Assembly (NCBI RefSeq): GCF_004214895.1
Contig: NZ_CP035952.1
Location: 2,986,501-3,050,500 of the forward strand
Source: Pseudomonas tructae
GTDB lineage: Bacteria; Pseudomonadota; Gammaproteobacteria; Pseudomonadales; Pseudomonadaceae
Reading direction: 5' to 3'
Length of the DNA stretch: 64,000 bases
The position numbers and the translations under genes are program-made. Under the pieces are notes generated by a model, which ran no database searches, was not told the origin of the DNA, and saw nothing but the letters and a program-made list of their open reading frames with translations. This document shows, piece by piece, positions 22,995 to 64,000 of this stretch. Within the stretch, counting starts at the first letter, position 1. The number at the start of each line of letters is the position of its first letter.

Positions 22995-23018
22995 GCGCGG
23001 CGCAAGCCCGCTCCCACA
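22995..23018 (-). repeat. REP element, inverted partner, just after the MscS gene
   Basis: The + strand GGCGCAAGCCCGCTCCCACA is the reverse complement of the REP core with slight divergence. With 22867-22891 it forms a convergent REP pair downstream of the mechanosensitive channel stop. Confidence 0.75.
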
Positions 23019-46600: not shown

Positions 46601-49600
46601 CATGCGCCAGCAGGGTCTGCAAGCTGATGTGCAGGTGCTGTACGGCCAGTCGACCCTGGCCAGCCTGGCCGCCGCCGTGGTGGTTGGCGAGGTTGCGCAG
46701 GTCCCGGCCAACCGGGTCCCGAGCGACTGCCAACAGATTACCCCCGAGCTGCTTGCACTCACCGAACTTGACCAGGCGGCCATCGAACGTATCGTCGCGG
46801 CGGTGCCCGGAGGGGCCGCCAACGTGCAGGAGATTTATCCGCTGGCGCCGCTGCAGCAGGGCCTGCTCTACCATCATGTCACCGATGTGCGCGACCCTTA
46901 CCAGCAACAGGTGTTGTTCGCCTTTGCCGACCCGCAGTGCCTGGCAGCCTTTGCCCAGGCCCTGCAACGGGTGATCGAGCGCCACGACATCCTGCGCACC
47001 AGCCTTGTCTGGGAGGATCTTGAACAGCCCCAGCAAGTGGTATGGCGCAAGGCTCAGCTGGAGGTCGAAACCTGGAGCCAGGTTGCGCAGACGGGTGACG
47101 TCGGTGCGCAACTACGCAGTGATTACGATCCGCAGCAACGGCCGCTGGACTTGCGCCGGGCGCCGATGATGGCACTGGTCAGCGCCGAAGATCGCCAGCA
47201 AGGGCGCTGGCTGGGGTTGCTGCGTTTCCACCACCTGGTCAACGACGCGGTGTCCATCCAGGTACTACTGAGCGAACTTGAAGCGTTCATGGCCGGGAGC
47301 GGTGAGCAACTGCCTGAGCCTGTGGCGTACCGTGACTATGTTGCCCTCAGTGGCGCTGCCGAGCGCCAGGCTGGCCACCAGGCGTTTTTTCGCGAACAAC
47401 TGGTCGGCGTCGAGGCGCCTGTGCCCATCCCGGGACTGGGCGGTGCGACCGTTGATGAGGATCAACTGCACACCTGCAGCGAGCGCCTCGACGATGCACT
47501 GACCGCCACATTGCGCAACCTGGCCCGCCAGCAGGGCGCCAGCCTTGCCAGCCTCCTGCACCTGGCCTGGGCCCAGGTGCTCGGTACCCTGGCGGTGGTC
47601 GATGAGGTCACCGTCGGCACGGTGCTGCTGGGGCGGGCCATGGCTGGCAAAGACGCCGATCGCGCCATGGGCATGTTCATCAACAGCCTGCCGCTGCGGG
47701 TCAACCTCGCCGGGCAATCGGTCAGCCAGGCCCTGGCCGCGACCCATGGACGCCTGGCTGCGCTGCTGGGCCATGAAGATGCGCCGTTGATCCTGGCCCA
47801 GCATTGCAGCGGTCTGCCAGCGGGCACGCCGTTGTTCAACAGCCTGATCAACTACCGCTACGGGGCGGTGGTGCAGGGCCAGGTGCTGCCGGGGGTGACC
47901 CTGGTCGCGGCCAGCGAAGTGCTCAGCCATGGCCTGGTGCTGACCGTGGACGATCAGGAGCAGACCTTGCAGTTGGCCGTCCGCGCGCCACGGGCGATCG
48001 GTGCGCAACGGCTGCTGGACGCGCTGTCGACTGCCTTGCGGCAACTGGGCCAGGCCCTGGCCGAGGGTGGCCATGGTGCGCTGGAGGCGCTGTGCAGTGT
48101 GCCGGCCGCGGAGTTGCAGCGCCTGTTGCACGATTTCAACAGCACCGAGGACCGCCACAGCCCGCTGGACCAGACGCTGCCGGCACTGTTCGAGGCCCAG
48201 GTGCGGCGCACGCCCCAGGCCATCGCGCTGCAGAGCGAGGACGCCAGCCTCGACTACCAGACCCTCAATGCCCAGGCCAATCGCCTGGCTCATCGCCTGC
48301 TGAGCCTGGGCGTTGGTCCCGATACCCGGGTGGCGGTGTGCGTCGAGCGCGGGGTGGCAATGATGGTCGCCTTGCTCGGGGTGCTCAAGGCCGGTGGTGC
48401 CTACGTGCCCCTGGACCCCGGTTACCCGGCCGAGCGCCTGCAATTCTTGCTGACTGACAGCGCGCCCCAGGTACTGTTGGTGCATAGCGCCACCCGTGGC
48501 CTGTTCGAACCGTCGGGGTTAACCCTGCTGGACCTGGACCAGGACGCTTGGCAAGTCGGCGCCGATCACGATCCGCAGGTCCCGGGGTTGGGCCCGGCGC
48601 AGTTGGCCTACGTGATGTACACCTCGGGCTCCACGGGCACGCCCAAGGGGGTGATGATCGAGCATCGCGGCCTGTGCAACCTGATGCATTGGGGCTCGCA
48701 GATCTGCCTGCCACGGCCGGGCGATGCCTTGCTGCAACGGGCGCCGTTCACCTTCGATGGCTCAGTGTGGGAACTGTTCTGGCCGCTGACGGCAGGCCTG
48801 CGCCTGGTCCTGGCGCGACCGGACGGGCACCGCGATCCGGCCTACCTGGTGCAGTTGATCCAGGCCCGCCAGGTGACCCTGATCAAGTTCGTGCCGGCAC
48901 TGCTGCATCAGTTTCTCGAGGTGCCAGGTGTCGAGCGCTGTACCAGCCTGACCGACATTTTCTGCGGCGGCGGTGAGCTGACCCTGGCACTGCTGGCCAG
49001 CGTGCGCCAGCGCCTGCCCAAGGTGCGTTTGCACAACGTCTATGGTCCTACCGAGGCCACTGTGGACAGCACCGCCTGGACCCTGCGGGCCGATGAACCG
49101 CTGCCGCTGCAGGTGCCGCCCATTGGCCGGCCGATCGCCAACACCCGCCTGTATGTACTCGATGCCCACGACCGCCTGGTGCCGCTGGGTGCGGTGGGGC
49201 AGTTGCATATCGGTGGCGTCGGCGTGGCGCGTGGTTACCTGGGGTTGCCGGCCTTGCAGGCGCAACGTTTTATCGCCAGCCCGTTCGTGGACGGCGATCG
49301 TTTGTACCGTACCGGCGATCTGGTGCGTTACCGCGAGGATGGCCAGCTCGACTTTCTTGGCCGCAACGACTTTCAGGTCAAGCTGCGTGGGCTGCGGGTC
49401 GAGCTTGGCGAGATCGAGGCATGGCTGGTCGCGCACCCGGCGATCAGCCAGTGCGTGGTGCTGATGCGCGAAGAGCGCCTGGTGGCCTATTTCACCTGCC
49501 GCGAAGGTGCCCATGCGCCGGCCCTGGAGGTCCTGCGCAACCACTTGCTGGCGCGCATGCCCGAGTACATGGTGCCGTCGGCGTATGTGGCGCTGGCGCA

Positions 49601-49970
49601 ACTGCCGCTGAGCGCCAATGGCAAGGTGGATCGTCAGGCGTTGCCTGCCCCCGGTGCCGAAGCGGTGATCAGCCGCAGCTACCAGGCGCCACAGGGCGAG
49701 CTGGAAACGGCGCTGGCAGACATCTGGACGCAGGTGCTGAAAATCGAGCAGGTCGGTCGCGACGACAACTTCTTCGAATTGGGTGGCCATTCGCTGCTCG
49801 CCGTCAACCTGGTGGCGCGCATGCGCCAGGCCGGGTTGCATGTCGATGCACGGACCTTGTTCAGCCAGCCGACCCTGGCGGGCCTTGCGGCCAGCACCCA
49901 GCGCCAGCCGTTGCAGGTAGCGATTCCCGAGACGACCATCCCGAGCCTGGGCACGCGGCGGCGTCTGTGA
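43608..49970 (+). CDS. psoA: Lipopeptide NRPS, modules 1-2 (starter C-A-T-C-A-T), PsoA-like
   Basis: A 2,120-aa NRPS. The starter condensation domain (LTAAQRDIWLDQISHGD; active site HHLILDG at 140-146) is of the fatty-acylating type. A1 (TSGSTG at 612) has specificity residues read as DAWFLGNVVK, the usual Leu code. T1 has LGGHS with Ser989. C2 carries HHLVNDA at 1208-1214 (Gly replaced by Ala) and lacks the dual epimerisation motif, so residue 1 should stay L. A2 (TSGSTG at 1672) reads DGWKFGVVDK, Glu/Gln-like. T2 Ser is at 2062. There is no thioesterase; a short tail (TIPSLGTRRRL) suits docking to the next NRPS. Leu-Glu is the opening of putisolvin, entolysin and xantholysin; the name psoA is inferred from the later residues. 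Confidence 0.9.
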   Translation: MPAANTFALTAAQRDIWLDQISHGDSPRYNVGGYVDFDGDIDAGRLRQALVHLMGLHDSLRTVLVAQDEDSGVPRQCFSDGLAVDLSEHDLRAIPEPFAAAQALMKARLQRPYALDTAPLWGTMLIRIADRRYLFVLHTHHLILDGWGIDQMFKQTADCYRLLEQGQPLPDTAPSYRDFIDDDAHYQQSTRQARDRDYWLAKYKQLPDPLLAPRERGALIAAEPTAALELPFDAGLLTRMRQLAQDLQASAFHVLLAALHVCCARTWQRDEWVLGLPVRNRSNARFKATMGLFSQVSALHMDFGRSQSFAELVGAIGDTLKQDFRHQRFSLSDLNRALGAQREERSQLFELMLSYEEDDNDLRYGQTASHSVMICNGHGPTPLSIHLRGNSHSAKACLHLVYNHAWFSAEEVRALAERLLYVLEQGLQRPELSIAAFDVLTASEHARLQAWNATSVPAACQALIHRRIEAQAAAWPQAVAAFHNGQQLSYGELNRRADILARHLIALGSQPEQRVAVVARRGLDTLVGLLAVLKSGAAYVPIDPAQPLERLAYLLDDSAPQVVLTQSSLSERLPAHGRPQIELDRCDWNEALDSRPLSLAQSADSLAYVIYTSGSTGEPKGVMVEHRMLANLVDWSCTAFDLGPGRQQSCLAGFGFDAMAWEVWPALCSGATLHLAPVRDGAEDIEALLRWWRAQPLDVSFLPTPVAEHAFAQGELHPTLHTLLVGGDRLRRLGREQRYRVINNYGPTEATVVATAGQVQAGQPLHIGAPVANTRAYVLDGQRRLLPIGAVGELYIGGSGVARGYLNRPELTAERFLSDPHSEAANARMYRTGDLVCWNADGNLEYLGRNDDQVKIRGVRVELAEIEAALASHARVRECVVLLRDGQLQAWFIGDAAATPLELYEHLRQRLSAALLPGAYTRLTAWPLTANGKLDRRALPVADDAAKVRRVHEAPQGEIEQRLAVLWAELLKVERVGRRDHFFELGGHSLLAVQLIGRMRQQGLQADVQVLYGQSTLASLAAAVVVGEVAQVPANRVPSDCQQITPELLALTELDQAAIERIVAAVPGGAANVQEIYPLAPLQQGLLYHHVTDVRDPYQQQVLFAFADPQCLAAFAQALQRVIERHDILRTSLVWEDLEQPQQVVWRKAQLEVETWSQVAQTGDVGAQLRSDYDPQQRPLDLRRAPMMALVSAEDRQQGRWLGLLRFHHLVNDAVSIQVLLSELEAFMAGSGEQLPEPVAYRDYVALSGAAERQAGHQAFFREQLVGVEAPVPIPGLGGATVDEDQLHTCSERLDDALTATLRNLARQQGASLASLLHLAWAQVLGTLAVVDEVTVGTVLLGRAMAGKDADRAMGMFINSLPLRVNLAGQSVSQALAATHGRLAALLGHEDAPLILAQHCSGLPAGTPLFNSLINYRYGAVVQGQVLPGVTLVAASEVLSHGLVLTVDDQEQTLQLAVRAPRAIGAQRLLDALSTALRQLGQALAEGGHGALEALCSVPAAELQRLLHDFNSTEDRHSPLDQTLPALFEAQVRRTPQAIALQSEDASLDYQTLNAQANRLAHRLLSLGVGPDTRVAVCVERGVAMMVALLGVLKAGGAYVPLDPGYPAERLQFLLTDSAPQVLLVHSATRGLFEPSGLTLLDLDQDAWQVGADHDPQVPGLGPAQLAYVMYTSGSTGTPKGVMIEHRGLCNLMHWGSQICLPRPGDALLQRAPFTFDGSVWELFWPLTAGLRLVLARPDGHRDPAYLVQLIQARQVTLIKFVPALLHQFLEVPGVERCTSLTDIFCGGGELTLALLASVRQRLPKVRLHNVYGPTEATVDSTAWTLRADEPLPLQVPPIGRPIANTRLYVLDAHDRLVPLGAVGQLHIGGVGVARGYLGLPALQAQRFIASPFVDGDRLYRTGDLVRYREDGQLDFLGRNDFQVKLRGLRVELGEIEAWLVAHPAISQCVVLMREERLVAYFTCREGAHAPALEVLRNHLLARMPEYMVPSAYVALAQLPLSANGKVDRQALPAPGAEAVISRSYQAPQGELETALADIWTQVLKIEQVGRDDNFFELGGHSLLAVNLVARMRQAGLHVDARTLFSQPTLAGLAASTQRQPLQVAIPETTIPSLGTRRRL

Positions 49971-50098: not shown

Positions 50099-53000
50099 AT
50101 GCTCTTCAGCGAACTGATGGCTGCGCTCTCCACCCATGCAATCCGACTCCAGCGTGAAGACCAGGACCTGATTGTCCTGGGCGACGACCAAACCCTGGAC
50201 GACAACCTGTGGGAGGCACTGTCGCGGCACAAGCCAGCGTTACTGGCCATGCTCGCTGAACAGGATGACGACTGGTTGAGCCCGGCGTTTCGTATCACTC
50301 CGGACATGCTGCCGCTGGTCGACCTCGACCAGGCCGCGATCGATCGAATCGTCGCCAGCGTCCCGGGTGGGGCGGCGAACGTCCAGGACATCTACCCCCT
50401 GGCGCCGCTGCAGCAGGGCATGCTCTACCATCACCTGGCAGCCGGCGACGGTGATCCGTACCTGTCGCAAGTACAGCTGCGCTTTGCCAGCCGCGAGCAC
50501 CTGGAGGCTTTTGCCGCCGGCCTGCAGTGGGTGATCCAGCGTCATGACATCCTGCGTACTGCGCTGCACTGGGAGTACCTCGACGCGCCGGTGCAGGTGG
50601 TCTGGCGCGAGGCGCAGCTGATGCGCGAGGCCGTTGCCGTGGACGGCGCCCAGGCGTTGGCGCAGTTGTGCAGCCGTTTTGACCCCCGGCACTACCGCCT
50701 GGACCTGCATCAGGCGCCGTTGATGCAACTGATGCATGCCCGCGGCGAAGGTGAGGCGTGGGTGGCATTGCTGTCGTTCCACCACACCGTGATGGACCAC
50801 ACCGCGCTGGATATCGTGCGCCGCGAAATTCACGCGCACCTGACCGGTGAGACTGCCCAGCTGGCGGCGCCGGTGGCGTTTCGCAATGTGCTGGCCGAGG
50901 CGCGCCTGGCCCTGGACGAGCAGGCCCATGAGGATTTCTTTACCCAGATGCTCGCCGACATCGACGCGCCGACCCTGGCGTTCGGCTTGCAAGACAAGGG
51001 CGATCAGGCGCTCGAAGAGGCGCGCCTGAGCCTGGCACCCTCACTCAGCCGCCGCCTGCGCGAGCAGGCCCGGCAACTGGGGGTGAGTCCGGCAAGCGTG
51101 CTGCATCTGGGCTTCGCCCGCCTGCTCGGGCAGTTGTCGGCCCGCCAGAGTGTGGTGTTCGGCAGCGTGCTGCTGGGGCGCATGAGCACCGGCGCCGGTG
51201 GCGATCAGGCGTTGGGCATGTTCATCAATACTCTGCCGCTGCGCGTCGATTTGGGCCAGCACGGCGTGCGTGATGCCCTGCTGACGACCCACCGGCGGCT
51301 CAGCGCCTTGCTCGGCCATGAACAGGCCTCGTTGGCGCTGGCTCAGCGTTGCAGTGCGGTCGCGGCGCCGACGCCGTTGTTCAACAGTTTGCTCAACTAT
51401 CGCCATAGCGCGGGCGGTGATGCTGCCGAGATCATCCCGGTGGCACCGGGCATCGATATCGTCGGGGCCCAGGAACGTACCGACTACCCCTTGACCGTGA
51501 GCGTCGATGATCTGGGCGAAGACTTCCGCTTGAGCGTGCAGGCCCTCGCGCCATGGGGTGCCGAGCGCCTCTGTGGGCTGCTGGAACAGACATTGGCCAG
51601 CTTGGTCGAGGCCCTGGAACACACACCAGCGCTGCCTGTTCAGACGCTTGCAGTCCTGCCCGCGCAAGCGCGTGAACAGCTTGTGCACGCTTTCAATGCC
51701 ACGGCCCAGGCCTACGCGCAGGGGCACACCGTGCACGCCCTGGTCGAGGCCCAGGCGCGCCGTGCCCCCGAGGCCGTAGCGCTGAGCCAGGACGGCCTGG
51801 CCCTGAGCTATGGCGAGTTGAACCGGCGTGCCAATCGCCTGGCCCACAGCCTGATCGAGCGTGGCGTGCAACTGGGCGATCGGGTTGCCCTGTGCCTGCC
51901 GCGCAGCGCCGAGCGGGTCATCGGCCTGTTGGCCGTGCTCAAGGCCGGTGCCGCCTACGTGCCGGTGGACCCGAACTACCCGGCCGAGCGTATCGCCTAC
52001 CTGCTGGCCGACAGCGCGCCGACCCTGGTGCTGGCCGATTCGCGCATCGACGGGCTGGCGAACAACGTGCCACGGCTCGACCTCGACCAGCCGGGCGCCT
52101 ACCACCTGGCCGATGACAATCCTCATGTGCCAGGCCTGTACGCGCAGCAGCTGGCCTACGTGGTCTACACCTCCGGTTCCACCGGCCAGCCCAAGGGCGT
52201 GATGATCGAACACCATGCCCTGGCCAACCTGGTGCACTGGCATTGCCAGGCCTTCGACGTGGTGGCCGGTACGCATACCGCAAGCGTCGCAGGCTTCGGT
52301 TTCGACGCCATGGCCTGGGAAGTCTGGCCGGCGTTGTGCGCCGGGGCCACATTGCACTTGCCGCCTGTGCACATCGGCAACGAGCATGTCGATGAGCTGC
52401 TCGACTGGTGGCTGGAGCAACCATTGGCGGTCAGCTTCCTGCCCACGCCAGTGGCCGAGCAGGCCCTGCGCCGCGAGCGTCAGCATCCGACGCTACGCGC
52501 CTTGCTGATCGGTGGTGATCGCCTGCGCCAGTTCGAACGCGACCCGGGCTTTGCCGTGATCAACAACTATGGCCCGACCGAGACCACGGTGGTTGCCACC
52601 TCCGGACGCGTAATGCCGAACGGCACGCTGGATATCGGTAGGCCCATCGCCAACACCCGCGTGTATGTCCTCGACGAGGGCCTGCAACCGGTGCCAGTGG
52701 GGGTTACCGGCGAGTTGTACATTGGCGGCGCACAGGTAGCACGGGGTTACCTGAATCGCCCCGAACTGACGGCAGAGCGTTTTCTCGACGACCCGTTCAG
52801 CGATGCGCCGGGTGCGCGCATGTACCGCAGCGGCGACCTGGTGCGCTGGAATGCCGATGGCACCCTGGACTATCTGGGCCGCAACGACGACCAGGTGAAG
52901 ATCCGCGGTGTGCGGGTCGAGCTGGGCGAGGTCGAGGCAGCCTTGGCTATGCAACCGGGCATCGACGATGCTGTGGCACTGGTGCGCGGTGAGCGGTTGC

Positions 53001-56000
53001 TGGCCTGGTTTACCGAAACTGCGCCGGTCGACCTTGATTCGTTACGTCAGGCCCTGCAAGCCAAGCTACCGGCGCACCTGGTGCCGCAGGCGTTCGTGCG
53101 CCTGGAACTGTGGCCACTGACCAGCCACGGCAAGCTCGACCGTCGCGCGCTGCCGGATCCAGACCCAGCGGCGCTGCTTGGTCAGGCCTATGAAGCACCG
53201 CAGAACGATGCCGAAGCGACCATGGCTGCAGTGTGGGCCGAAGTGCTGGGGGTCGAGCGGGTAGGGCGCCATGACAACTTCTTCGAACTGGGTGGTCATT
53301 CGCTGCTGGCGGTGACCCTGGTCGAGCGCCTGCGCAAGGCCGGCCTGCTTATCGACGTGCGGGTACTGTTCGCCCAACCGACCCTGGCCGCGCTTGCCGC
53401 TGCGGCCGGCGGCAGTCGCGAGGTGGCGGTGCCGGCCAACCGGGTGCCGAACCATGCCGAGCGCATCACCCCGGACATGCTCAGCCTGATCGAGCTGAGC
53501 CAGGCCGATATCGAGCGTATCGTTGCCACTGTGCCGGGTGGCGCTGGCAACGTGCAGGAGATCTACCCGCTGGCGCCCCTGCAGGAGGGCGTGCTCTATC
53601 ATCACCTGAGTGCCGAGCACGGCGACCCCTACCTGTTGCAGACCCGCCTGGCCTTCGACAGCGTCGAGCGCTTGCTGGCCTGGGCCGGAGCCTTGCAGCA
53701 AGTGATCGATCGCCATGACATCCTGCGCACCGCAGTGCTCTGGCAAGGGCTGGCACAGCCGGTTCAGGTGGTCTGGCGCAACGCCGAGCTGGCCGTGATC
53801 GAAACCGACACGCTGCCGGACGAGCCGAGTCTGGACCTGTCCCAGGCACCGCTCACGCGCCTGTACTACAGCCTGGACCCGGTCAACCATCAGGTGCTGG
53901 CGATTTTGCTGTTCCATCACCTGACCCTCGACCACACCGCCATGGACGTGGTCGCCGGCGAAATGCGCGCGCTGCTGTTCGGCCAGGCGCAGACCCTGCC
54001 GGCCGCCGTGCCCTATCGCAACTATGTGGCCCAGGCGCGCTTGGGCGACCAGGCCGGCCACGAAGCGTTCTTCCGTGAAATGCTCGGCGACGTCGATGAG
54101 CCGACTTTGCCGCTGGGTCTTGCCGATGTGCAGGGCGACGGTCGCAGCATCGACACGGCTTACCAGGCGCTCGACGTCGAAGTTGGCCTGCGCCTGCGCA
54201 GCCAGGCGCGTCAGCTCGGGGTCAGCGCCGCGAGTCTGATGCACCTGGCCTGGGCGCGGGTGCTCGGGGTACTTGCCAACCGTCGCGACGTGGTCTTCGG
54301 CACCGTGCTGATGGGCCGTCTGCAGGGCGGTGAAGGCGCCGACCGGGCGCTGGGCATGTTCATCAATACCTTGCCGTTGCGGGTCGACACGGGGGCCGCA
54401 GCGCGTGTTGCGGTACGCGCGACCCACCGCAGCCTGTCGGCATTGCTCGGCCACGAGCACGCACCCCTGGCCCTGGCCCAGCGCTGCAGCGGCGTGGCGG
54501 TGTCCTCGCCGTTGTTCAGCGCCTTGCTCAACTACCGCCACACGGCCGACGATGCGCCACGCGAAGGTGAGGGCATCTGGGCGGGCGTGCGCCTGCTCGG
54601 TGGCCAAGAGCGCAGCAACTATCCGTTGACCCTGAGTGTCAACGACCTGGGTAAAGGCTTTAGCTTCAACGTACTGGCGCTGCCGGGTATTGGCGCGCAG
54701 CGGGTGGCCCAGTGGATGGCCAATGCTGTGGAGCAACTGTTGCAGGTGTTGGAGCAGGGGCTGGAGACGGCAGTCGATGGTTTGCCGATCCACGATGGCG
54801 ATGAACGTCGGCAACTACTGGAAAACTTCAACTCAACGACACAGGCATTCCCTCAGGTGCACACTGTGCACGCCCTGGTCGAGGCCCAGGCGCGCCGTGC
54901 CCCCGAGGCTGTGGCGCTGAGCCAGGACGGCCTGATCTTGAGCTTCGGCGAGATGAACCAGCGCGCCAACCGCCTGGCCCACAGCCTGATCGAGCGTGGC
55001 GTGCAACTGGGCGATCGGGTTGCCCTGTGCCTGCCGCGCAGCGCCGATCGGCTCATCGGCCTGTTGGCCGTGCTCAAGGCCGGTGCCGCCTACGTGCCGG
55101 TGGACCCGAACTACCCGGCCGAGCGTATCGCTTACCTGCTGGCCGACAGCGCGCCGACCCTGGTGCTGGCCGATTCACGCATCGACGGGCTGGCGAACAA
55201 CGTGCCACGGCTCGACCTCGACCAGCCGGGCGCCTACCACCTGGCCGATGACAATCCTCATGTGCCAGGCCTGAACGCGCAGCAGCTGGCCTACGTGGTC
55301 TACACCTCCGGTTCCACCGGCCAGCCCAAGGGCGTGATGATCGAACACCATGCCCTGGCCAACCTGGTGCACTGGCATTGCCAGGCCTTCGACGTGGTGG
55401 CCGGTACGCATACCGCAAGCGTCGCAGGCTTTGGTTTCGACGCCATGGCCTGGGAAGTCTGGCCGGCGTTGTGCGCCGGCGCCACATTGCACTTGCCGCC
55501 GGTGCACATCGGCAACGAGCATGTCGATGAACTGCTCGACTGGTGGCTGGAGCAACCACTGGCAGTCAGCTTCCTGCCCACGCCAGTGGCCGAGCAGGCC
55601 CTGCGCCGCGAGCGCCAGCATCCGACCCTGCGGACTCTGTTGATCGGTGGAGATCGCCTGCGCCAGTTCGAGCGCGACCCGGGCTTTGCCGTGATCAACA
55701 ACTATGGCCCGACCGAGACCACGGTGGTTGCCACCTCCGGACGCGTAATGCCGAACGGCACGCTGGATATCGGTAGGCCCATCGCCAACACCCGCGTGTA
55801 TGTCCTCGACGAGGGCCTGCAACCGGTGCCAGTGGGTGTTACTGGCGAGCTGTACATCGGCGGCGCACAGGTGGCACGGGGTTACCTGAATCGCCCCGAA
55901 CTGACGGCAGAGCGTTTTCTCGACGACCCGTTCAACGATGCGCCGGGCTCACGGATGTACCGCAGCGGCGACCTGGTGCGCTGGAATGCCGATGGCACCC

Positions 56001-59000
56001 TGGACTATCTGGGCCGCAACGACGACCAGGTGAAGATCCGCGGTGTGCGGGTCGAGCTGGGCGAGGTCGAGGCAGCCTTGGCTATGCAACCGGGCATCGA
56101 CGATGCTGTGGCACTGGTGCGCGGCGAGCGGTTGCTGGCCTGGTTTACCGAAACTGCGCCGGTCGACCTTGATTCGTTACGTCAGGCCCTGCAAACCAAA
56201 CTGCCGGCACACCTGGTGCCGCAGGCGTTCGTGCGCCTGGAACAGTGGCCACTGACCAGCCACGGCAAACTGGACCGTCGCGCGCTGCCGGATCCAGACC
56301 CGGCGGCGCTGCTTGGTCAGGCCTATGAAGCACCGCAAAACGATGCCGAAGCGACCATGGCGGCGGTGTGGGCCGAGGTGCTGGGGGTCGAGCGGGTAGG
56401 GCGCCATGACAACTTCTTCGAACTGGGTGGTCATTCGCTGCTGGCGGTGACCCTGATCGAGCGCCTGCGCCAGCAAAGCCTGTCCACCGATGTACGGGTG
56501 CTGTTCAGCCAACCGACTGTCGCTGCCCTGGCGGCTGCGCTGGGCCAGGGGCGTCAGGTCGCGGTGCCGCAGAACCGAATTGCGGCCGACTGCACCCGTA
56601 TCACCCCTGACATGTTGCCCCTGGTGACGCTGAGCCAGGCCGACATCGAGCGAATCATCGCCACCGTGCCGGGCGGTGCTGCCAACGTGCAGGACATCTA
56701 CCCGCTGGCACCGCTGCAGGAAGGCATCCTCTATCACCACCTGAGCGCCGTCGACGCCGACCCCTACCTGCTGCAATGGCGTCTGGCCTTTGACAGCCCG
56801 GCGCGTCTGCAAGCCTTTGCCAACGCCCTGGATCAGGTCGTCGCCCGCCATGACATCCTGCGTACCACCGTGCTCTGGGACAGCCTGCCACAACCGGTTC
56901 AAGTGGTATGGCGCACCGTCCCCACTGTGCTTGTGGGAGCGGGCTTGCCCCGCGATCAACACACCGCCGTAGTAGACCTGAGTAGCGCCCCCCTGATCCG
57001 CCTGCACTACACCCAGGCCGTCGATACCCCGCGCATCGAAGCCACCCTGCAGTTCCACCACATCGTCCTTGACCAAACCGCCATGAAGGTCGTACTCGAG
57101 GAGATCGGCGACCACCTGCGTGGCCAGACGCCGCAGCACCCGCCGGTGCCGTACCGCAACTACGTGGCCCAGGCGCGCCTGGCCATCAGTGAGACCGAGC
57201 ATGAGGCATTCTTCCGCGCCCAATTGGCGGATATCGACGAGCCAACCCTGCCCTATGGCCTGAGCGACCTTCAGGGCCAGGTCAGCAACTTTGAACTGGC
57301 CACCGTGCAACTCGACAACGCCCAGTACCTGCGCCTGCGCAGCCAGGCCCAACAGTTGGGCGTGAGCGCTGCCAGCGTGTTGCACCTGGCCTGGGCGCGG
57401 CTATTGGCGGCCACCAGCGGCACCGACAACGTGGTGTTCGGCACCGTGCTGCTGGGCCGCTTGCAAGGCGGCGCCGGCGCCGACCGTGGGCTGGGCATGT
57501 TCATCAATACCTTGCCACTGCGCCTGGACCTGGACGGCCTGGGCGTGCGTGAGGGCGTGCGTCTGACCCACCAGCGCCTGAGCGCGCTGCTGGCTCACGA
57601 GCATGCGCCCCTGGCCCTGGCCCAACGCTGCAGCGGCGTGGCCGCGCCAACGCCGTTGTTCAGTGCCATCATCAACTACCGCCATAGTGCCAGCGCCGCC
57701 GAGCAGGCGCTGCAGCGCGAGGCCCTGGAAGGCATCGAGGCCCTGCCCAGCGGCGGCCATGGCAACTACCCGCTAAGCGTCAACGTCGACGACCTTGGCG
57801 ATGGCATGCGCATGACCGTGCAGGTAACCCCACAGGTAGGCGCGCAGCGGGTCTGTGAGCAGTTGCTGCAAGTGCTGAGCGGTGTGCTGCAGGCACTCGA
57901 GCAGCAGCCGCAGTCAGCGCTGCAGCAACTGCCACTGCAGGGGCCGGCAGAGCGCCAGCGCCTGCTGGTCGCAGCCAACGCCAGCGAGCAGCCCCATGAC
58001 CTTCGGCAAACACTGCATGGGTTGTTCGAGGCCCAGGTGCGGCGCACGCCGAACGCGGTAGCGGTGGAGGGCGAGGAGGGTGCGTCAAGCTATCGTCAGC
58101 TCGACGATCAGGCCAACCGCCTGGCCCATCACTTGATTGGCCTGGGGGTCAAACCGGATGACCGCGTGGCGATCTGCGTCGAGCGCGGGTTGTCGATGCT
58201 GGTCGGCCTGCTGGCCATCCTCAAGGCCGGTGGCGCCTATGTGCCGCTCGACCCGAGTTATCCGCCCGAGCGTATCGCCCATATGCTCAAGGACAGTACG
58301 CCGCTTGCAGTGCTTGCCCATGCCACCACCCGTGAGCTGTTGAAGGCGTGGCAAGGGCAACTGATCGACCTCGATCAGCCCGTCTGGGAGAAGCAACCCA
58401 GCAGCACACCACAGATCCCGGTGCTGAGCGCCCAAAACCTGGCCTACGTGATCTACACCTCCGGCTCCACCGGCCTGCCCAAAGGCGTGATGGTCGAGCA
58501 CCGCAACGTGGTCAACCTGGTGCACTGGAGCGCGCGCCTGTTCCCGGCGTCGCCTGGGGCCGCGGTGTTGCACAAGACCCCGAGCAGTTTCGATGCCTCG
58601 GTCTGGGAGCTGTTCTGGCCGCTGTGCAGCGGTGTGCGCCTGGTGTTGGCGCGGGCTCAGGATCCGCACGATCCACAGTACCTGGTGCAATTGATCCAAG
58701 CGCGTCAGGTCAGCGTCGTGCAGTTCGTCCCGGCCTTGCTGCAGCAGTTCCTTGACGCGCCGCAGAGTGAGCGCTGCACCGGCCTGAGCGATATCGTCTG
58801 CGGCGGTGGCGAGCTGACTGCGGCGTTGGCTGCGCAGGTGCGTCAACGCTTGCCCGGGGTGCGCCTGCACAACGTCTACGGCCCCACCGAGACCACGGTC
58901 GATTGCAGCGTGTGGACCCTTGCGCCCAGCGAGCCGGTGCCGCCGGGCGCGCTGCCAATCGGCAAACCGATCGACAACACCCGGTTGTATGTCCTGGACC

Positions 59001-62000
59001 GCCATGACCGGCCAGTACCCTGGGGCGTGGTCGGCCATCTGCACATCGGCGGCGCCGGGGTTGCCCGTGGCTACCTGGGCTTGCCGGCGCAACAGGCCGA
59101 ACGCTTCATCGCCAGCCCCTTCGTCGAGGGCGAGCGCCTGTATCGCAGCGGCGACCTGGTGCGCCAGCGTGAAGACGGGACCCTGGAGTTTCTGGGCCGC
59201 AACGACCATCAGGTGAAGATCCGCGGCCTGCGCATTGAACTGGGCGAGATCGAGGCCTGCCTGATCCGTGTGGCCGGTGTCCGTGAGGCGGTGGTCATGG
59301 CCCAAGCAGATGCCAGCAGCGGGCCGCGCCTGGTCGCCTATCACAGTGGTGAGCCGCAGGATGCGGACACCCTGCGCCAGGCGCTACTGACGCAGTTGCC
59401 GCAGTACATGGTCCCGGCGCTGTACATTCACCTCGACACACTGCCCCTGACCAGCAACGGCAAGCTCGACCGCAAGGCATTGCCGTCACCTGAGGCAGCC
59501 TTGCAGCAGCGCCCGTTTGCGCCGCCCCAGGGTGAGACGGAAACCTTGCTGGCGCGCCTGTGGGCCGAGCTGCTGGGTGTGGCGCAGGTCGGTCGGCACG
59601 ACAACTTCTTCGAACTGGGCGGCCACTCGCTGCTGGCCGTCAGCCTGACGGCGCGCCTGCGCCTGGAGGGCCTGCAGGTCGATGTGCGTACCCTGTTTGG
59701 CCAGCCGACCGTGGCCGCCCTGGCCGCCACCCTGGGTAATGATCGTCAGGTGACGGTGCCGCAGAACCGTATCCCTGACGGCTGCACCCGGATCACCCCG
59801 GACCTGCTCAGCCTGATCGAACTGGACCAGACGGCCATTGAGCGTATCGTCGCCAGCGTTGCCGGCGGCGCCGCCAACATCCAGGATATCTACCCGCTGG
59901 CACCGCTGCAGGAGGGCATTCTTTATCACCACCTGCGTGCTCAGGAGCACGATCCCTATGTGCTCTACTCGCGGCTGAACTTCGACAGCCTGGAACGTCT
60001 GCAGACCTTCGCCGCCGCCCTGGACCGGGTCATCGCCCGCCATGACGTGCTGCGCACCGTGGTGCTCTGGGACAGCCTGCCGCAACCGCTGCAAGTGGTC
60101 CTGCGCAACGTCCCCTCCGTGCTGGGAGCTACATCTGTGGGAGCGGGCTTGCCCCGCGATAGCTACACCCCGCCAATGGACCTGAGCACCGCCCCCCTGA
60201 TCCGCCTGCTCTACACCCAGGTTCCCGGCGCCGCGCACATCGAAGCCACCCTGCAGTTCCACCACATCGTCCTCGACCATACCGCCCTGGAGGTGGTCGG
60301 CGAAGAACTCAATGCATACCTGCAGGGCGCCGCAGCACCTGCACATGCCCCGGTACCGTACCGCAACTACGTGGCCCAGGCGCGCCTGGGCATCAGCCAG
60401 GCCGAGCATGAGGCGTTCTTCCGCGAGCAACTGGCCGACATCGACGAACCGACCCTGGCCTACGGCCTGAGTGACGTACAAGGCGATGGCCGTGATCTGC
60501 AAGAAGTGAAGATGCCCTTGTCGGGCGAGCTTGCCGCCGGCCTGCGCCGCCAGGCGCGGGCGTTGGGCATCAGCGTCGCCAGCCTGTTCCACCTGGCCTG
60601 GGCGCGCCTGCTGGGCGCGGCCAGTGGCAAGCACAGCGTGGTCTTCGGCACCGTGCTGCTGGGTCGCCTGCAAGGTGGCGAGGGCGCCGAACGGGCGCTG
60701 GGCATGTTCATCAACACCTTGCCGCTGCGGGTAGACCTGGCAGGGGTAAGCCTGCGCGATGCAGCCCATGCCACCCACCAGCGCCTGAGTGCGCTGCTGG
60801 CCCATGAGCACGCTTCGCTGGCCCTGGCCCAGCGCTGCAGCGGGGTTGCCGCGCCGCTGCCGCTGTTCAGCGCCATGCTCAATTACCGCCATGGCGCACT
60901 GGCCAGCGCAGAACAGCGCAAGGCCTGGCAGGGCATCGAGGTACTCGAAGGCCAGGAGCGCACCAACTATCCCCTGAGCCTTAACGTGGACGATCTGGGC
61001 GAAGATTTCCGCCTGGTGGCCATGACGCCTGCGCAAGTGGGCGCGGCGCGGATTTGCGCGCAGATGGTCCAGGTGCTTGAGGCCATGGTCACGGCCCTGG
61101 AGCAGCAGCCGCAGTTGCCGGTGCAGCAACTACCGGTGCTCGAGGCAGCAGAACGACGCCGGGTGCTGCTGGATTTCAACAACACCGAGGTGAACTACGA
61201 CCTCGGCCAGACCTTGCACGGCCTGATCGAGGCCCAGGTCGAGCGCACCCCGGATGCCGTGGCGGTGCGTGGCGAGGAGGGTGAGCTGAGCTATCGCCAG
61301 CTCAACCAGCAGGCCAACCGCCTGGCCCATCACCTGATCGGCTTGGGGGTCAAACCTGATGACCGCGTAGCGATCTGTGTCGAGCGCGGGTTGTCGATGG
61401 TGGTGGGGCTGTTGGCGATTCTCAAGGCCGGTGCGGCCTATGTGCCGGTGGACCCGGATTATCCGGTTGAGCGGATCCGTCACATGTTGGCCGACAGTGC
61501 GCCGGTTGCCGTGCTGGTGCATGCTGCCACGCGACATGTACCGGACAGCATCGGCATCATTGATCTGGACCTGCCGACCTGGCACGCACTGCCAGAGCGC
61601 AATCCGTGCCTCAACGGCCTGATGGCGAACCATCTGGCTTACGTGATCTACACCTCCGGCTCGACCGGCTTGCCTAAAGGCGTGATGAACGAGCATGCCG
61701 GTGTGGTCAACCGCCTGCTGTGGATGCAGGACGCCTATCAGCTGGGCAGCGATGACGTGGTGCTGCAAAAGACCCCATTCAGCTTCGACGTCTCGGTCTG
61801 GGAATTGCTCTGGCCGCTGCAGGCCGGTGCCCGGCTGGTCATGGCTCGCCCCGGCGGCCATCGCGACCCGCAGTACCTGCGCGAGATTATCCGTAGCGAA
61901 GGGGTCAGCACCTTGCACTTCGTGCCGTCGATGCTGGATGTGTTCCTGGCGGATGGCCACGTAGCAACTGAGCGACTGAAGCGGGTGCTGTGCAGTGGCG

Positions 62001-64000
62001 AAGCCTTGCCGGGCAGCCTGGTGCGGCGCTTCCACGCTCAATTGCCAACGGTCGAGCTGCACAACCTCTACGGTCCAACCGAAGCTGCGGTGGACGTCAG
62101 TGCCTGGCAGTGCAGCAGCGCACCGGACAATACGCCAATTGGCAAGCCGATTGCCAACACCACCTTGTACGTACTCGATGATCAACTGCAGCCGGTACCC
62201 CAGGGTGTGGCTGGCGAGCTGTATATCGGTGGCGTGCAGGTTGCCCGTGGATACTTGAACCGCGACGAACTCACCGCCGAGCGCTTTATCGATGACCCGT
62301 TCAGTTCACGTCCTGGCGCGCGGTTGTACCGCACCGGCGACCTGGCCCGGCACTTGGCCGACGGCAACCTTGAGTATCTGGGCCGCAACGATGATCAGGT
62401 GAAAATCCGTGGCTTGCGTATCGAACTGGGCGAAATCCAGGCCGGCCTGACCCGTTTGCCGGGCATCAAGGAAGCTGTGGTGATCGCCCGTGAACAACGC
62501 TTGATTGCCTACTACACCGGTGAACATCAGCCTGTGGAAACCTTGCGTGCCGCACTGCTCGTACACCTGCCAGAGTTCATGGTGCCCGCGCTGTTCATGC
62601 ACCTGGACGCATTACCGCTCAGCCCCAATGGCAAGCTCGATCGCAAGGCACTGCCGCAGGTCGAGGTCGAAAACCGCGCGTTCGAGGCCCCCGAGGGCGA
62701 GACCGAAACCCTGCTGGCCGGCCTTTGGACCGAACTGCTGGGGGTGGAGCGGGTAGGACGCCACGACAACTTCTTCGAACTGGGCGGCCATTCGCTGCTG
62801 GCGGTCAGCCTGACCTCACGCCTGCGCCAGCTCGGCCTGCAGGCCGATATCCGCGTACTGTTCGGCCAACCGACCCTCGCGGCCCTGGCGGCAGCGGTGG
62901 GGCGCGAGTCCGGGGTACAGGTCCCGGACAATCGCATCCCGGCGCACTGCAGCCGCATCAGCCCGGACATGCTGCCATTGGCCGAGCTGTCGCAGCAGGC
63001 CCTCGATGGCCTGGTGGCACAGATCCCTGGTGGCGCGGCCAATGTCCAGGACATCTACGCCCTGGCGCCGTTGCAGCAGGGCATTCTTTACCACCACCTG
63101 GCCCGCGAGGGCGCGGACCCCTATGTGCTGCAGGCGCGCTTCGCCTTTGCCGGACAAGCCGAGCTGGATGCCTTTGCTGCGGCCCTGGACAAGGTCATCG
63201 AACGCCACGACATACTGCGCACCAGCTTCCATTGGCAAGGGCTGGAGGAAGCCGTGCAAGTGGTCCAGTGCAGCGTCCCCTCTGTAGGAGTGGCCTTGCG
63301 CCGCGATGAATCCTCAGCGGTTCTTGATCTGAACCAGGCTCCACTGATCCGCCTACTGCAAACCCAGGCCAACGGCCGCCATGAAGCGACGTTGCTGCTG
63401 CACCACATCATCCTTGACCACGCCGCCGTCGAGCAGTTGGTGGCGCACATCAGTACGGTGCTGCAAGGTCAGGCATTGCCCGACGACAGCGTGCCTTACC
63501 GCAACTACGTGGCCCAGGCCCGTCTGGGTGCCAATACCCAGGCTGATGAAGCCTTGTTCCGCGAACTGCTGGGCGATATTGACGAGCCTACCGAAGTGTT
63601 CGGTCTGCGCGACGCCCAGGGCGACGGCACGGCGGTGCTCGACAGCCGCCTGGCCCTGGCGCCGAGCCTGGCCAGCCGCTTGCGCGCCCAGGCCCGCCAG
63701 TTGGGTGTCAGCCTCGCCAGCCTGGTGCACCAGGCCTGGGGCCAGGTGCTGGGGCAATTGTCCGGGCGCGAGGACGTGGTATTCGGCACGGTGCTGCTCG
63801 GCCGCCTGCAGGGTGGCGAAGGGGCTGAACGCGCCTTGGGCATGTTCATCAACACCTTGCCGTTGCGGGTCAGCGTCGGCGCTGGCGCAGTGGCTGAGGG
63901 CGTGCGCCTGACCCATCAGCGTCTGGCCCGCTTGCTGGCCCATGAACAGGCGTCCCTGGCCCTGGCCCAGCGCTGCAGCGGTGTAGCCGCTTCGCAACCG
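50099..64000 (+). CDS. psoB: Lipopeptide NRPS, modules 3-6 and part of module 7 (TubC dock, then C-A-T repeats), PsoB-like; truncated by window end
   Basis: The frame is open for 4,634 residues to the window end. Residues 1-52 form a TubC-like docking domain (MLFSELMAALSTHAIRLQRE). Four C-A-T modules follow: C active-site His pairs at 228, 1273, 2320 and 3388; A-domain TSGSTG at 691, 1736, 2787 and 3852; T-domain Ser at 1068, 2113, 3177 and 4232. A fifth C has HHIILDH at 4435. A-domain codes read DAWFLGNVVK (Leu), the same again, DAWQVGVVDK (Gln-like) and DVWHLSLVDK (Ser). C1 and C2 have HH-L-x4-GD, the dual epimerisation/condensation motif; C3-C5 keep most of it. Predicted chain so far is Leu-Glx-Leu-Leu/Ile-Gln-Ser, as in putisolvin. 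AGGA lies ten bases before ATG 50099. Confidence 0.9.
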   Translation, partial: MLFSELMAALSTHAIRLQREDQDLIVLGDDQTLDDNLWEALSRHKPALLAMLAEQDDDWLSPAFRITPDMLPLVDLDQAAIDRIVASVPGGAANVQDIYPLAPLQQGMLYHHLAAGDGDPYLSQVQLRFASREHLEAFAAGLQWVIQRHDILRTALHWEYLDAPVQVVWREAQLMREAVAVDGAQALAQLCSRFDPRHYRLDLHQAPLMQLMHARGEGEAWVALLSFHHTVMDHTALDIVRREIHAHLTGETAQLAAPVAFRNVLAEARLALDEQAHEDFFTQMLADIDAPTLAFGLQDKGDQALEEARLSLAPSLSRRLREQARQLGVSPASVLHLGFARLLGQLSARQSVVFGSVLLGRMSTGAGGDQALGMFINTLPLRVDLGQHGVRDALLTTHRRLSALLGHEQASLALAQRCSAVAAPTPLFNSLLNYRHSAGGDAAEIIPVAPGIDIVGAQERTDYPLTVSVDDLGEDFRLSVQALAPWGAERLCGLLEQTLASLVEALEHTPALPVQTLAVLPAQAREQLVHAFNATAQAYAQGHTVHALVEAQARRAPEAVALSQDGLALSYGELNRRANRLAHSLIERGVQLGDRVALCLPRSAERVIGLLAVLKAGAAYVPVDPNYPAERIAYLLADSAPTLVLADSRIDGLANNVPRLDLDQPGAYHLADDNPHVPGLYAQQLAYVVYTSGSTGQPKGVMIEHHALANLVHWHCQAFDVVAGTHTASVAGFGFDAMAWEVWPALCAGATLHLPPVHIGNEHVDELLDWWLEQPLAVSFLPTPVAEQALRRERQHPTLRALLIGGDRLRQFERDPGFAVINNYGPTETTVVATSGRVMPNGTLDIGRPIANTRVYVLDEGLQPVPVGVTGELYIGGAQVARGYLNRPELTAERFLDDPFSDAPGARMYRSGDLVRWNADGTLDYLGRNDDQVKIRGVRVELGEVEAALAMQPGIDDAVALVRGERLLAWFTETAPVDLDSLRQALQAKLPAHLVPQAFVRLELWPLTSHGKLDRRALPDPDPAALLGQAYEAPQNDAEATMAAVWAEVLGVERVGRHDNFFELGGHSLLAVTLVERLRKAGLLIDVRVLFAQPTLAALAAAAGGSREVAVPANRVPNHAERITPDMLSLIELSQADIERIVATVPGGAGNVQEIYPLAPLQEGVLYHHLSAEHGDPYLLQTRLAFDSVERLLAWAGALQQVIDRHDILRTAVLWQGLAQPVQVVWRNAELAVIETDTLPDEPSLDLSQAPLTRLYYSLDPVNHQVLAILLFHHLTLDHTAMDVVAGEMRALLFGQAQTLPAAVPYRNYVAQARLGDQAGHEAFFREMLGDVDEPTLPLGLADVQGDGRSIDTAYQALDVEVGLRLRSQARQLGVSAASLMHLAWARVLGVLANRRDVVFGTVLMGRLQGGEGADRALGMFINTLPLRVDTGAAARVAVRATHRSLSALLGHEHAPLALAQRCSGVAVSSPLFSALLNYRHTADDAPREGEGIWAGVRLLGGQERSNYPLTLSVNDLGKGFSFNVLALPGIGAQRVAQWMANAVEQLLQVLEQGLETAVDGLPIHDGDERRQLLENFNSTTQAFPQVHTVHALVEAQARRAPEAVALSQDGLILSFGEMNQRANRLAHSLIERGVQLGDRVALCLPRSADRLIGLLAVLKAGAAYVPVDPNYPAERIAYLLADSAPTLVLADSRIDGLANNVPRLDLDQPGAYHLADDNPHVPGLNAQQLAYVVYTSGSTGQPKGVMIEHHALANLVHWHCQAFDVVAGTHTASVAGFGFDAMAWEVWPALCAGATLHLPPVHIGNEHVDELLDWWLEQPLAVSFLPTPVAEQALRRERQHPTLRTLLIGGDRLRQFERDPGFAVINNYGPTETTVVATSGRVMPNGTLDIGRPIANTRVYVLDEGLQPVPVGVTGELYIGGAQVARGYLNRPELTAERFLDDPFNDAPGSRMYRSGDLVRWNADGTLDYLGRNDDQVKIRGVRVELGEVEAALAMQPGIDDAVALVRGERLLAWFTETAPVDLDSLRQALQTKLPAHLVPQAFVRLEQWPLTSHGKLDRRALPDPDPAALLGQAYEAPQNDAEATMAAVWAEVLGVERVGRHDNFFELGGHSLLAVTLIERLRQQSLSTDVRVLFSQPTVAALAAALGQGRQVAVPQNRIAADCTRITPDMLPLVTLSQADIERIIATVPGGAANVQDIYPLAPLQEGILYHHLSAVDADPYLLQWRLAFDSPARLQAFANALDQVVARHDILRTTVLWDSLPQPVQVVWRTVPTVLVGAGLPRDQHTAVVDLSSAPLIRLHYTQAVDTPRIEATLQFHHIVLDQTAMKVVLEEIGDHLRGQTPQHPPVPYRNYVAQARLAISETEHEAFFRAQLADIDEPTLPYGLSDLQGQVSNFELATVQLDNAQYLRLRSQAQQLGVSAASVLHLAWARLLAATSGTDNVVFGTVLLGRLQGGAGADRGLGMFINTLPLRLDLDGLGVREGVRLTHQRLSALLAHEHAPLALAQRCSGVAAPTPLFSAIINYRHSASAAEQALQREALEGIEALPSGGHGNYPLSVNVDDLGDGMRMTVQVTPQVGAQRVCEQLLQVLSGVLQALEQQPQSALQQLPLQGPAERQRLLVAANASEQPHDLRQTLHGLFEAQVRRTPNAVAVEGEEGASSYRQLDDQANRLAHHLIGLGVKPDDRVAICVERGLSMLVGLLAILKAGGAYVPLDPSYPPERIAHMLKDSTPLAVLAHATTRELLKAWQGQLIDLDQPVWEKQPSSTPQIPVLSAQNLAYVIYTSGSTGLPKGVMVEHRNVVNLVHWSARLFPASPGAAVLHKTPSSFDASVWELFWPLCSGVRLVLARAQDPHDPQYLVQLIQARQVSVVQFVPALLQQFLDAPQSERCTGLSDIVCGGGELTAALAAQVRQRLPGVRLHNVYGPTETTVDCSVWTLAPSEPVPPGALPIGKPIDNTRLYVLDRHDRPVPWGVVGHLHIGGAGVARGYLGLPAQQAERFIASPFVEGERLYRSGDLVRQREDGTLEFLGRNDHQVKIRGLRIELGEIEACLIRVAGVREAVVMAQADASSGPRLVAYHSGEPQDADTLRQALLTQLPQYMVPALYIHLDTLPLTSNGKLDRKALPSPEAALQQRPFAPPQGETETLLARLWAELLGVAQVGRHDNFFELGGHSLLAVSLTARLRLEGLQVDVRTLFGQPTVAALAATLGNDRQVTVPQNRIPDGCTRITPDLLSLIELDQTAIERIVASVAGGAANIQDIYPLAPLQEGILYHHLRAQEHDPYVLYSRLNFDSLERLQTFAAALDRVIARHDVLRTVVLWDSLPQPLQVVLRNVPSVLGATSVGAGLPRDSYTPPMDLSTAPLIRLLYTQVPGAAHIEATLQFHHIVLDHTALEVVGEELNAYLQGAAAPAHAPVPYRNYVAQARLGISQAEHEAFFREQLADIDEPTLAYGLSDVQGDGRDLQEVKMPLSGELAAGLRRQARALGISVASLFHLAWARLLGAASGKHSVVFGTVLLGRLQGGEGAERALGMFINTLPLRVDLAGVSLRDAAHATHQRLSALLAHEHASLALAQRCSGVAAPLPLFSAMLNYRHGALASAEQRKAWQGIEVLEGQERTNYPLSLNVDDLGEDFRLVAMTPAQVGAARICAQMVQVLEAMVTALEQQPQLPVQQLPVLEAAERRRVLLDFNNTEVNYDLGQTLHGLIEAQVERTPDAVAVRGEEGELSYRQLNQQANRLAHHLIGLGVKPDDRVAICVERGLSMVVGLLAILKAGAAYVPVDPDYPVERIRHMLADSAPVAVLVHAATRHVPDSIGIIDLDLPTWHALPERNPCLNGLMANHLAYVIYTSGSTGLPKGVMNEHAGVVNRLLWMQDAYQLGSDDVVLQKTPFSFDVSVWELLWPLQAGARLVMARPGGHRDPQYLREIIRSEGVSTLHFVPSMLDVFLADGHVATERLKRVLCSGEALPGSLVRRFHAQLPTVELHNLYGPTEAAVDVSAWQCSSAPDNTPIGKPIANTTLYVLDDQLQPVPQGVAGELYIGGVQVARGYLNRDELTAERFIDDPFSSRPGARLYRTGDLARHLADGNLEYLGRNDDQVKIRGLRIELGEIQAGLTRLPGIKEAVVIAREQRLIAYYTGEHQPVETLRAALLVHLPEFMVPALFMHLDALPLSPNGKLDRKALPQVEVENRAFEAPEGETETLLAGLWTELLGVERVGRHDNFFELGGHSLLAVSLTSRLRQLGLQADIRVLFGQPTLAALAAAVGRESGVQVPDNRIPAHCSRISPDMLPLAELSQQALDGLVAQIPGGAANVQDIYALAPLQQGILYHHLAREGADPYVLQARFAFAGQAELDAFAAALDKVIERHDILRTSFHWQGLEEAVQVVQCSVPSVGVALRRDESSAVLDLNQAPLIRLLQTQANGRHEATLLLHHIILDHAAVEQLVAHISTVLQGQALPDDSVPYRNYVAQARLGANTQADEALFRELLGDIDEPTEVFGLRDAQGDGTAVLDSRLALAPSLASRLRAQARQLGVSLASLVHQAWGQVLGQLSGREDVVFGTVLLGRLQGGEGAERALGMFINTLPLRVSVGAGAVAEGVRLTHQRLARLLAHEQASLALAQRCSGVAASQP
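51731..53340 (+). repeat. Module A-T segment, copy 1 of a near-identical tandem pair
   Basis: From GTGCACGCCCTGGTCGAGGC to the T-domain region GAACTGGGTGGTCATTCGCT and slightly beyond, this DNA matches 54866-56475 at a constant offset of 3,135 bases, with only scattered substitutions and no net indel at the positions compared. It covers the whole A domain and T domain. Confidence 0.85.
54866..56475 (+). repeat. Module A-T segment, copy 2 of a near-identical tandem pair
   Basis: Near-identical to 51731-53340. The flanking C domains are clearly more diverged, so the similarity is confined to the A-T unit. Confidence 0.85.
56932..56956 (+). repeat. REP sequence inside the NRPS coding region (third C domain of the second NRPS)
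   Basis: An exact 25-base REP (TGTGGGAGCGGGCTTGCCCC, then GCGAT) lies in frame and is translated VGAGLPRD. It is in the loop between QVVWR and the DLS.APLIRL block of the condensation domain. Confidence 0.9.
60136..60160 (+). repeat. REP sequence inside the NRPS coding region (fourth C domain)
   Basis: Identical to the 25 bases at 56932-56956, in the same frame and at the homologous position of the next condensation domain, again giving VGAGLPRD. Confidence 0.9.
63283..63307 (+). repeat. Degenerate REP sequence inside the NRPS coding region (fifth C domain)
   Basis: TGTAGGAGTGGCCTTGCGCC then GCGAT matches the REP at 21 of 25 positions, in the same frame and homologous position, giving VGVALRRD. 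Confidence 0.75.

Follow-up and report, generated by a model that had tools for sequence, protein, structure and literature searches.

The stretch of DNA analysed here, a 64-kb window of the Pseudomonas tructae genome (G000, called the own genome below), carries two nonribosomal peptide synthetase (NRPS) genes, the second of which contains REPs as translated sequence. The genes, C domains and repeat copies are as follows, in window numbering:

43608..49970, plus strand: NRPS1, 2120 aa, two modules, C loops without REP
50099..64000 within the window and on to 72448, plus strand: NRPS2, 7449 aa, seven modules
56660..57955, plus strand: C domain of NRPS2 module 3 (PF00668), which houses the first REP
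56932-56956, plus strand: REP TGTGGGAGCGGGCTTGCCCCGCGAT, 25/25, in frame, encoding VGAGLPRD, in the C loop of module 3
59852..61160, plus strand: C domain of NRPS2 module 4, approximate bounds set as for module 3
60136-60160, plus strand: REP TGTGGGAGCGGGCTTGCCCCGCGAT, 25/25, in frame, encoding VGAGLPRD, in the C loop of module 4
63017..64000, plus strand: C domain of NRPS2 module 5, start approximate, cut at the window end
63283-63307, plus strand: REP-like site with 21/25 identity to the main REP (23/25 to a minor variant of the host), in frame, encoding VGVALRRD, module 5
69643-69667 (G000:C1:3056143), beyond the window: fourth copy, 24/25, in the same C loop and frame of module 7

Once the NRPS2 frame is completed with DNA beyond the window, it contains seven T-domain motifs. 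Counted with the neighbouring genes, T-domain motifs number 2, 7 and 4 in the cluster, near whose C-terminal end two GxSxG motifs lie. A [2-7-4] layout of this kind is assigned in the available text of PMC9948697 to predicted lipotridecapeptides, of which two come from the Putida group. The C domains are recognised by the PF00668 profile and by the C-domain fold with HHxxxD.

The original prediction held that two identical 25-base REPs and a degenerate third are translated in one frame, between the motifs QVVxR and DLxxAPLIRL of three C domains. This is what is found. The copies at 56932 and 60136 are exact, the third has 4 mismatches in 25, and all three share the frame running from 50099 and lie between these motifs (QVVQC at 63283), encoding VGAGLPRD, VGAGLPRD and VGVALRRD. 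The unrelated residues predicted at this loop elsewhere were seen in NRPS1 (second C domain) and NRPS2 (first two C domains). With the fourth copy, the C-loop element is present in modules 3, 4, 5 and 7 of NRPS2, and the 7449-aa frame stays open across all four inserts.

At 56932 and 60136, a GTRG tag (GTGG) is followed by the imperfect palindrome GCGGG-CTTGC-CCCGC, an architecture that is weaker at 63283. The C-loop copies in the window are single REPs and not REPINs (two inverted REPs with a short spacer), and they are coding and not extragenic; their naming as Pseudomonas REPs of the GTAG type follows from sequence, copy number and RAYT and disregards location, and PMC3733652 likewise uses the name for intragenic copies. 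In contrast to the coding copies, a pair of inverted REPs at 22867-23018, with 1 and 3 mismatches, lies outside the synthetase genes. The 63283 site differs from the minor REP variant of the own genome by 2 mismatches (2/4 of the places listed at 2 mismatches) and from its P. rubra orthologue by a single base in 23. Its nearness to that variant and the close agreement with P. rubra make it look like an earlier capture of the minor variant, rather than a decayed main REP.

REPs are normally located between genes. The own genome holds 704 REPs within 2 mismatches (363 + 341), against 0 for a reversed control. Its one Y1_Tnp gene (PF01797) matches NF047646, the REP-associated tyrosine transposase (RAYT), at E 2.1e-44. 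This gene (G000:C1:5569976-5570284) has exact REPs on either side, and the roughly 2.4 kb around it contain seven REPs, six of them exact, so the RAYT sought by the original prediction is present. The prediction also called for a count of coding and intergenic copies. A codon heuristic applied to 29 of the 704 copies classed 0/29 other exact REPs as coding, and the module-3 copy as coding; open frames around other REPs were not accepted as genes. The synthetase elements are real REPs outside their normal place, because of the 704 copies, the RAYT flanked by REPs and the non-coding character of the other sampled copies.

Chance likeness or an assembly error, the latter named by the original prediction as a way it could fail, can be set aside as practically negligible. 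The window contains 4 matches to the REP at up to 3 mismatches against a mean of 0.00 in 100 shuffles, and the REPs recur in the single-contig genomes G000 and G344 as well as in independently sequenced species.

Related synthetases show where else such elements lie. The survey covered 207 NRPS-like frames (1.88 Mb without repeats, 128 loci) gathered by likeness to the REP-bearing C domain, with NRPS regions from 39 of 126 genomes with a match plus the own genome. The share of REP-bearing genomes is biased because of this choice of loci, while the position of REPs inside genes is unaffected. Frames ran from stop to stop. Because domain detection relied on motifs, some C and A domains escaped it, and the loop set comprises 507 C and 92 A loops. 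Twelve REP types, at up to 3 mismatches, gave 34 matches: 16 in the C loop, nine in a loop of the A domain and nine ahead of a probable start. All 25 matches in probable coding DNA therefore fall in the C loop (16) or the A loop (9). The A-loop figure counts REPIN halves apart and includes two matches moved by hand from 'other' (L068 aa 4184, L187 aa 4239); it is an undercount, as 40-base de-duplication removes repeats common to REPINs (e.g. the + half in L060, and L073 matches). Five extra matches appear at 4 mismatches: one C-loop, one A-loop (L187 aa 4269), two pre-start and one likely due to chance (L078 aa 859). At up to 4 mismatches, the C-loop matches are all in + orientation (17/17).

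REPs just ahead of a probable synthetase start were seen in frames of L062, L066, L068, L078, L083, L109, L119 and L120. A REPIN that seemed to lie in another large frame, of 2247 aa in G389, is in fact ahead of an NRPS start.

With five REP types at up to 4 mismatches, matches occurred in 15/311 short C loops, 0/196 long C loops and 8/92 A loops (reversed controls 0, 0 and 0). Among other 100-base pieces 4/2854 matched, all 4 overlapping the C or A loop. Looser limits of 6, 7 and 8 mismatches gave 18, 31 and 75 of 311 short C loops (reversed controls 1, 8 and 39), 3, 11 and 54 of 196 long C loops (1, 12 and 41) and 17, 76 and 365 of 2854 other pieces (12, 87 and 400). With loop composition uncontrolled, the short-loop excess hints at decayed REP copies, which are not claimed here.

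A search of 5.8 billion proteins supplied 44 public relatives, 14 of which have REP-like C-loop peptides and nine REPIN-like A loops, with 17 having either (a hand count at peptide level). According to the original prediction, the same loop in distant REP-free genera would count against it. None was found among these 44 proteins (75 candidates only), the named ones being Pseudomonas except for one Pantoea sp. Ap-967. Loci L057, L067, L070 and L089 are labelled Pantoea or Stenotrophomonas, but their synthetases resemble those of the Pseudomonas putida group, and the labels may be wrong.

The A loop, delimited by PSMLDVFL..CSGE, has 23-24 residues in 75/92 cases and at least 44 in eight, all eight with REP-derived letters. 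For example, the insert in Pseudomonas sp. S37 is a complete REPIN of ~90 nt belonging to the host's own family; among 40 places scored in that genome, two are the synthetase A loops and the other 38 show 89-95% identity. The inserts of L068 and L060 each consist of two inverted REPs around a short spacer and recur in the genome; L055 holds part of a REPIN only. When the R28 A loop was searched as protein in 398 genomes, 18 genomes matched at E <=1e-12. The match was a synthetase A loop in three of them (G178, G344 and G413, two places each), and the other listed matches were shorter ones to REPIN translations. A loops of different genomes hold REPINs of different families. In P. juntendi (L076, L187), A loops of up to 98 residues contain a REP belonging to a different family as well as repeated additional letters, in frames open for thousands of residues. 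Counting modules along the putisolvin peptide given in the available text of PMC8788793, the A domains with such inserts would correspond to Ser6 and Ser9. That text also names COR19 and P. vlassakiae WCU_60 and WCU_64 as producers of putisolvins III-V.

Loop REPs differ in type between hosts. CTTG is found in the own genome, P. rubra and Ap-967, TTCA in S37 and G344 (and in R28 in A loops), CGAG in CC120222-01a, and CCTYGTGTC in the A loops of P. juntendi. Genomic copies of the CTTG, TTCA, CGAG and CCTYGTGTC types, in that order, are:

Own genome: 557, 0, 0, 0
P. rubra: 313, 0, 0, 0
Ap-967: 528, 1, 0, 6
S37: 12, 575, 11, 374
G344: 108, 50, 96, 84
P. juntendi: 0, 18, 25, 113
CC120222-01a: 15, 21, 35, 329
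R28: 2, 21, 35, 12

In 8/8 genomes the loop type is repeated elsewhere in the host genome, although in G344, CC120222-01a and R28 another of the four types is commoner; the counts leave out further A-loop variants of G344 and CC120222-01a, and P. vlassakiae. In a ninth genome, G165, the two types tried (CTTG and TTCA) were absent, and its loops gave no REP match.

Reading phase differs as well. CTTG copies are read in phase 0 (VGAGLPRD or VGAGLPRE), and C-loop copies of TTCA and CGAG in phase 1 (CGSGFTRE, CGSGRARE). An alignment of C loops from relatives, as originally proposed, revealed that orthologous module-3 loops carry different REP types in phase 0 or 1, and that several species have none. 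Two phases at orthologous loops mean that no single inherited insertion can account for them without compensating shifts. Independent captures in several lineages are shown by these alignments, because both REP types and reading phases differ in orthologous domains. The insertions of modules 4, 5 and 7 are common to the own genome and P. rubra. No clean empty site was found in the loci compared; P. rubra module 3 is without a REP, although a remnant may persist there, and has a chimeric C domain.

The history of the modules was followed in a tree of 76 C domains with the loop left out. Domains formed clades by module for module 4 (9/9, support 0.95), module 5 (8/8, 1.0), module 3 (8/9, 0.91) and module 7 (6/8, 0.98). 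Falling outside these clades, module 7 of the own genome and that of P. rubra group with module 3 (support 1.0), and P. rubra module 3 groups with module 2. Because C domains form clades by module across species, the module duplications predate the species; on this tree, the modules are older than the species and the loop content is species-bound.

The own module 7 C domain (at about 69545 in window numbering) groups with module 3, as does its P. rubra counterpart but not those of the other species in the tree, which suggests a C-domain replacement. P. rubra module 3 (L156) is itself a chimera, resembling own module 3 to ~180 bases past the loop and grouping with module 2 thereafter (82-97% identity to own module 3 around the loop, 55-85% further on).

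These data bear on the two routes that the original prediction had left open, a single entry followed by module duplication or repeated hits at the site. Under the first, a single REP invaded one C domain in an ancestor, duplication took it to the others, and the differences between species are later decay. This would fit the shared loop, the uniform + orientation (17/17), the mostly single REP type per genome and the insertions that the own genome and P. rubra have in common. It is nevertheless contradicted by duplications older than the species, by orthologous module-3 loops that differ in type and phase or lack a REP, and by A-loop REPINs from different families. Types, phases and the module-wise tree speak against a single insertion with module duplication, which we reject as quite improbable. 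Repeated hits are favoured instead by the types, the phases, the repetition of each loop type in its host and the second site in A domains. Of the proposed spread between modules, short-tract conversion is supported and whole-module duplication is not, because C domains cluster for the most part by module rather than by species.

Loop copying by gene conversion is best shown for modules 3 and 4 of CC120222-01a, where identity is 100% in the loop, 96% in the next 72 bp, 84% just upstream and 75% further out on both sides. Compared with their R28 orthologues, the same two modules are 88% identical overall and 58-59% in the loop. Similar copying is suggested for modules 4 and 7 of G344 (96%, 99%, then 85%).

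More generally, the excess of identity just downstream of the loop over that further away averaged +8.05 points across 4 genomes with REP-bearing loops (6 pairs), whereas the mean for 21 REP-free genomes (51 pairs) was -8.63; the one-sided Mann-Whitney p is 0.002, uncorrected for relatedness. Domains cut by contig ends were dropped (one each in G344 and S37, two of three in Ap-967), P. rubra contributed no pair, one REP-free pair (G131) is a duplicate at 100%, and the REP-free genomes P. juntendi, R28 and P. vlassakiae have A-loop REPINs. In the own genome the excess is +0.7 only. Conversion is clear in some genomes only, because the loops of own modules 3, 4 and 7 show no homogenisation outside the REP (65-75% alike).

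REP copies might themselves seed recombination, perhaps through RAYT nicking or hairpin breaks, with conversion from the genomic pool holding the consensus. The identity excess near the loop, the CC120222-01a tract and the closer likeness of REP letters than of the rest of the loop would all agree with this. However, the genomes are related and the REP-bearing ones cluster, leaving the p value uncorrected for phylogeny; the own genome is almost without excess; and conversion may have carried the REP, not been caused by it. Such seeding is considered unlikely, and of the original idea that REPs serve as homology for module recombination, a causal role is suggested only, by the +8.05 against -8.63 contrast.

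In 14 pairs of REP-bearing loops, which were selected for still matching a REP and have ancestry in common, 314/322 REP letters are identical as against 557/713 in the rest of the loop (hand sums), which a plain neutral spacer would not predict. The selection of REP-matching loops explains part of this agreement, and renewal from the genomic pool could account for the rest. For instance, own and P. rubra module 4 are 94-95% identical outside the loop, 73% in the loop outside the REP and 23/23 within it. An exchange that renews itself, with the REP/RAYT pool re-seeding loops and the copies raising short conversions between modules, appears distinctly unlikely. If true, it would mean that a mobile repeat shapes the evolution of nonribosomal assembly lines. 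In P. rubra module 7 (L053:10250-10500), about 30 extra in-frame bases split the REP, with both halves largely kept; the loop therefore seems to keep growing after capture.

In structural models, both inserts are low-confidence loops between regular elements. The AlphaFold model of the module-3 C domain (mean pLDDT 81.1) matches solved C domains, and residues 91-100, encoded by REP letters, have a mean pLDDT of 58 between strands 80-84 and 113-119. In an A domain with a REPIN (mean pLDDT 76.1), residues 238-272 fall below 50, between a helix (227-239) and a strand (278-282); the alignments behind the models are shallow (71 and 43 sequences), and the low pLDDT may partly reflect that. Both inserts fit tolerated surface loops, which are probably floppy. 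The original prediction of a REP domesticated as a surface loop is upheld for in-frame coding within a low-confidence loop, but the usefulness of that loop is not borne out.

Selection on the peptide itself, with VGAGLPRD or CGSGFTRE aiding the C domain, e.g. by partner contact or folding, seems very improbable. The REP loops of modules 4, 5 and 7 do persist in the own genome and P. rubra with the REP part little changed (the 30-base split in P. rubra module 7 excepted). Yet closely similar DNA read in two phases yields unrelated peptides, REP-free orthologues exist, the loop has low confidence in the model and the A domains hold a different element. A messenger hairpin that slows ribosomes between protein subdomains or stabilises the transcript is also hard to credit and can be given very little weight. 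The three REPs can fold (-14.5, -13.1 and -8.9 kcal/mol over 40 nt), but their z-scores (-1.13, -1.14 and -0.24) lie near that of a nearby control stretch (-0.79), which rules out a strong hairpin signal, and they sit inside a domain and not between domains.

The probable explanation, in which we have good though not complete confidence, is that of repeated independent captures at permissive loops followed by short-tract conversion. Host-family single REPs (C loop) and whole REPINs (A loop) would have been inserted into P. putida-group lipopeptide synthetase genes, most likely by the RAYT route that spreads REPs. An insertion would persist only if it left the frame open and fell where the enzyme can accommodate added residues, in these genes two surface loops. 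Capture occurred independently in several lineages, and the REP-bearing loop can then be copied to paralogous modules of one gene by short gene-conversion tracts. The residues encoded by the insert probably amount to a spacer that the enzyme tolerates, with no specific function.

Intragenic GTAG/CGTC REPs are the subject of Di Nocera et al. (2013; PMC3733652). The available text describes REPs or REP dimers wholly inside ORFs, with dimers or groups encoding 20-30 aa, and different REPs at about one recB site in two Xanthomonas species. The host genes named in that text are DNA repair, replication and RNA genes, not NRPSs, and its P. putida cases lie mostly at ORF starts and are thought non-coding. 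The synthetase elements resemble these REPs in lying within ORFs and, as at recB, in recurring at one site. They differ from what this text covers in that one NRPS loop has received REPs in several paralogous modules of a single protein, another domain provides a second target loop and local copying occurs between modules. The same text mentions Rickettsia palindromic elements, palindromic repeats in frame in genes of probably working proteins. The likeness there is one of mode only, an in-frame palindromic insert in a gene that stays open; element families and hosts are others, and the synthetase elements are REPs with hundreds of genomic copies. Pseudomonas REPINs are described in extragenic space in the available part of PMC3116915. 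The S37 A-loop insert is likewise a host-family REPIN, but a coding one, and the C-loop copies are single REPs, unlike the REPINs of that source. Exchange between modules is known to shape lipopeptide synthetases (PMC9948697; PMC8097286, as far as their available text goes); compared with this, the tract seen here is very short, centred on a C-domain loop and carries a mobile repeat.

The open-access literature (titles and abstract starts) yielded no paper on REPs in NRPS genes. Intragenic REPs are known; recurrent capture at two lipopeptide synthetase loops appears to be new as far as that literature shows, and to the same extent so do the hits in paralogous modules, the in-frame whole REPINs in A domains and the local copying between modules.

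These loci offer a natural set of repeated mobile-repeat insertions in a probably working enzyme, at two loops, in several species and with measurable products. Both the choice and survival of REP sites and the question of whether repeats speed exchange between modules are therefore testable. The two loops are also natural insertion points for NRPS engineering. REPIN-derived A loops occur in two public proteins that bear the putisolvin synthetase name PsoB: P0017 has them in each of the two A domains found, and P0018 in one. This suggests that synthetases with such loops can work.
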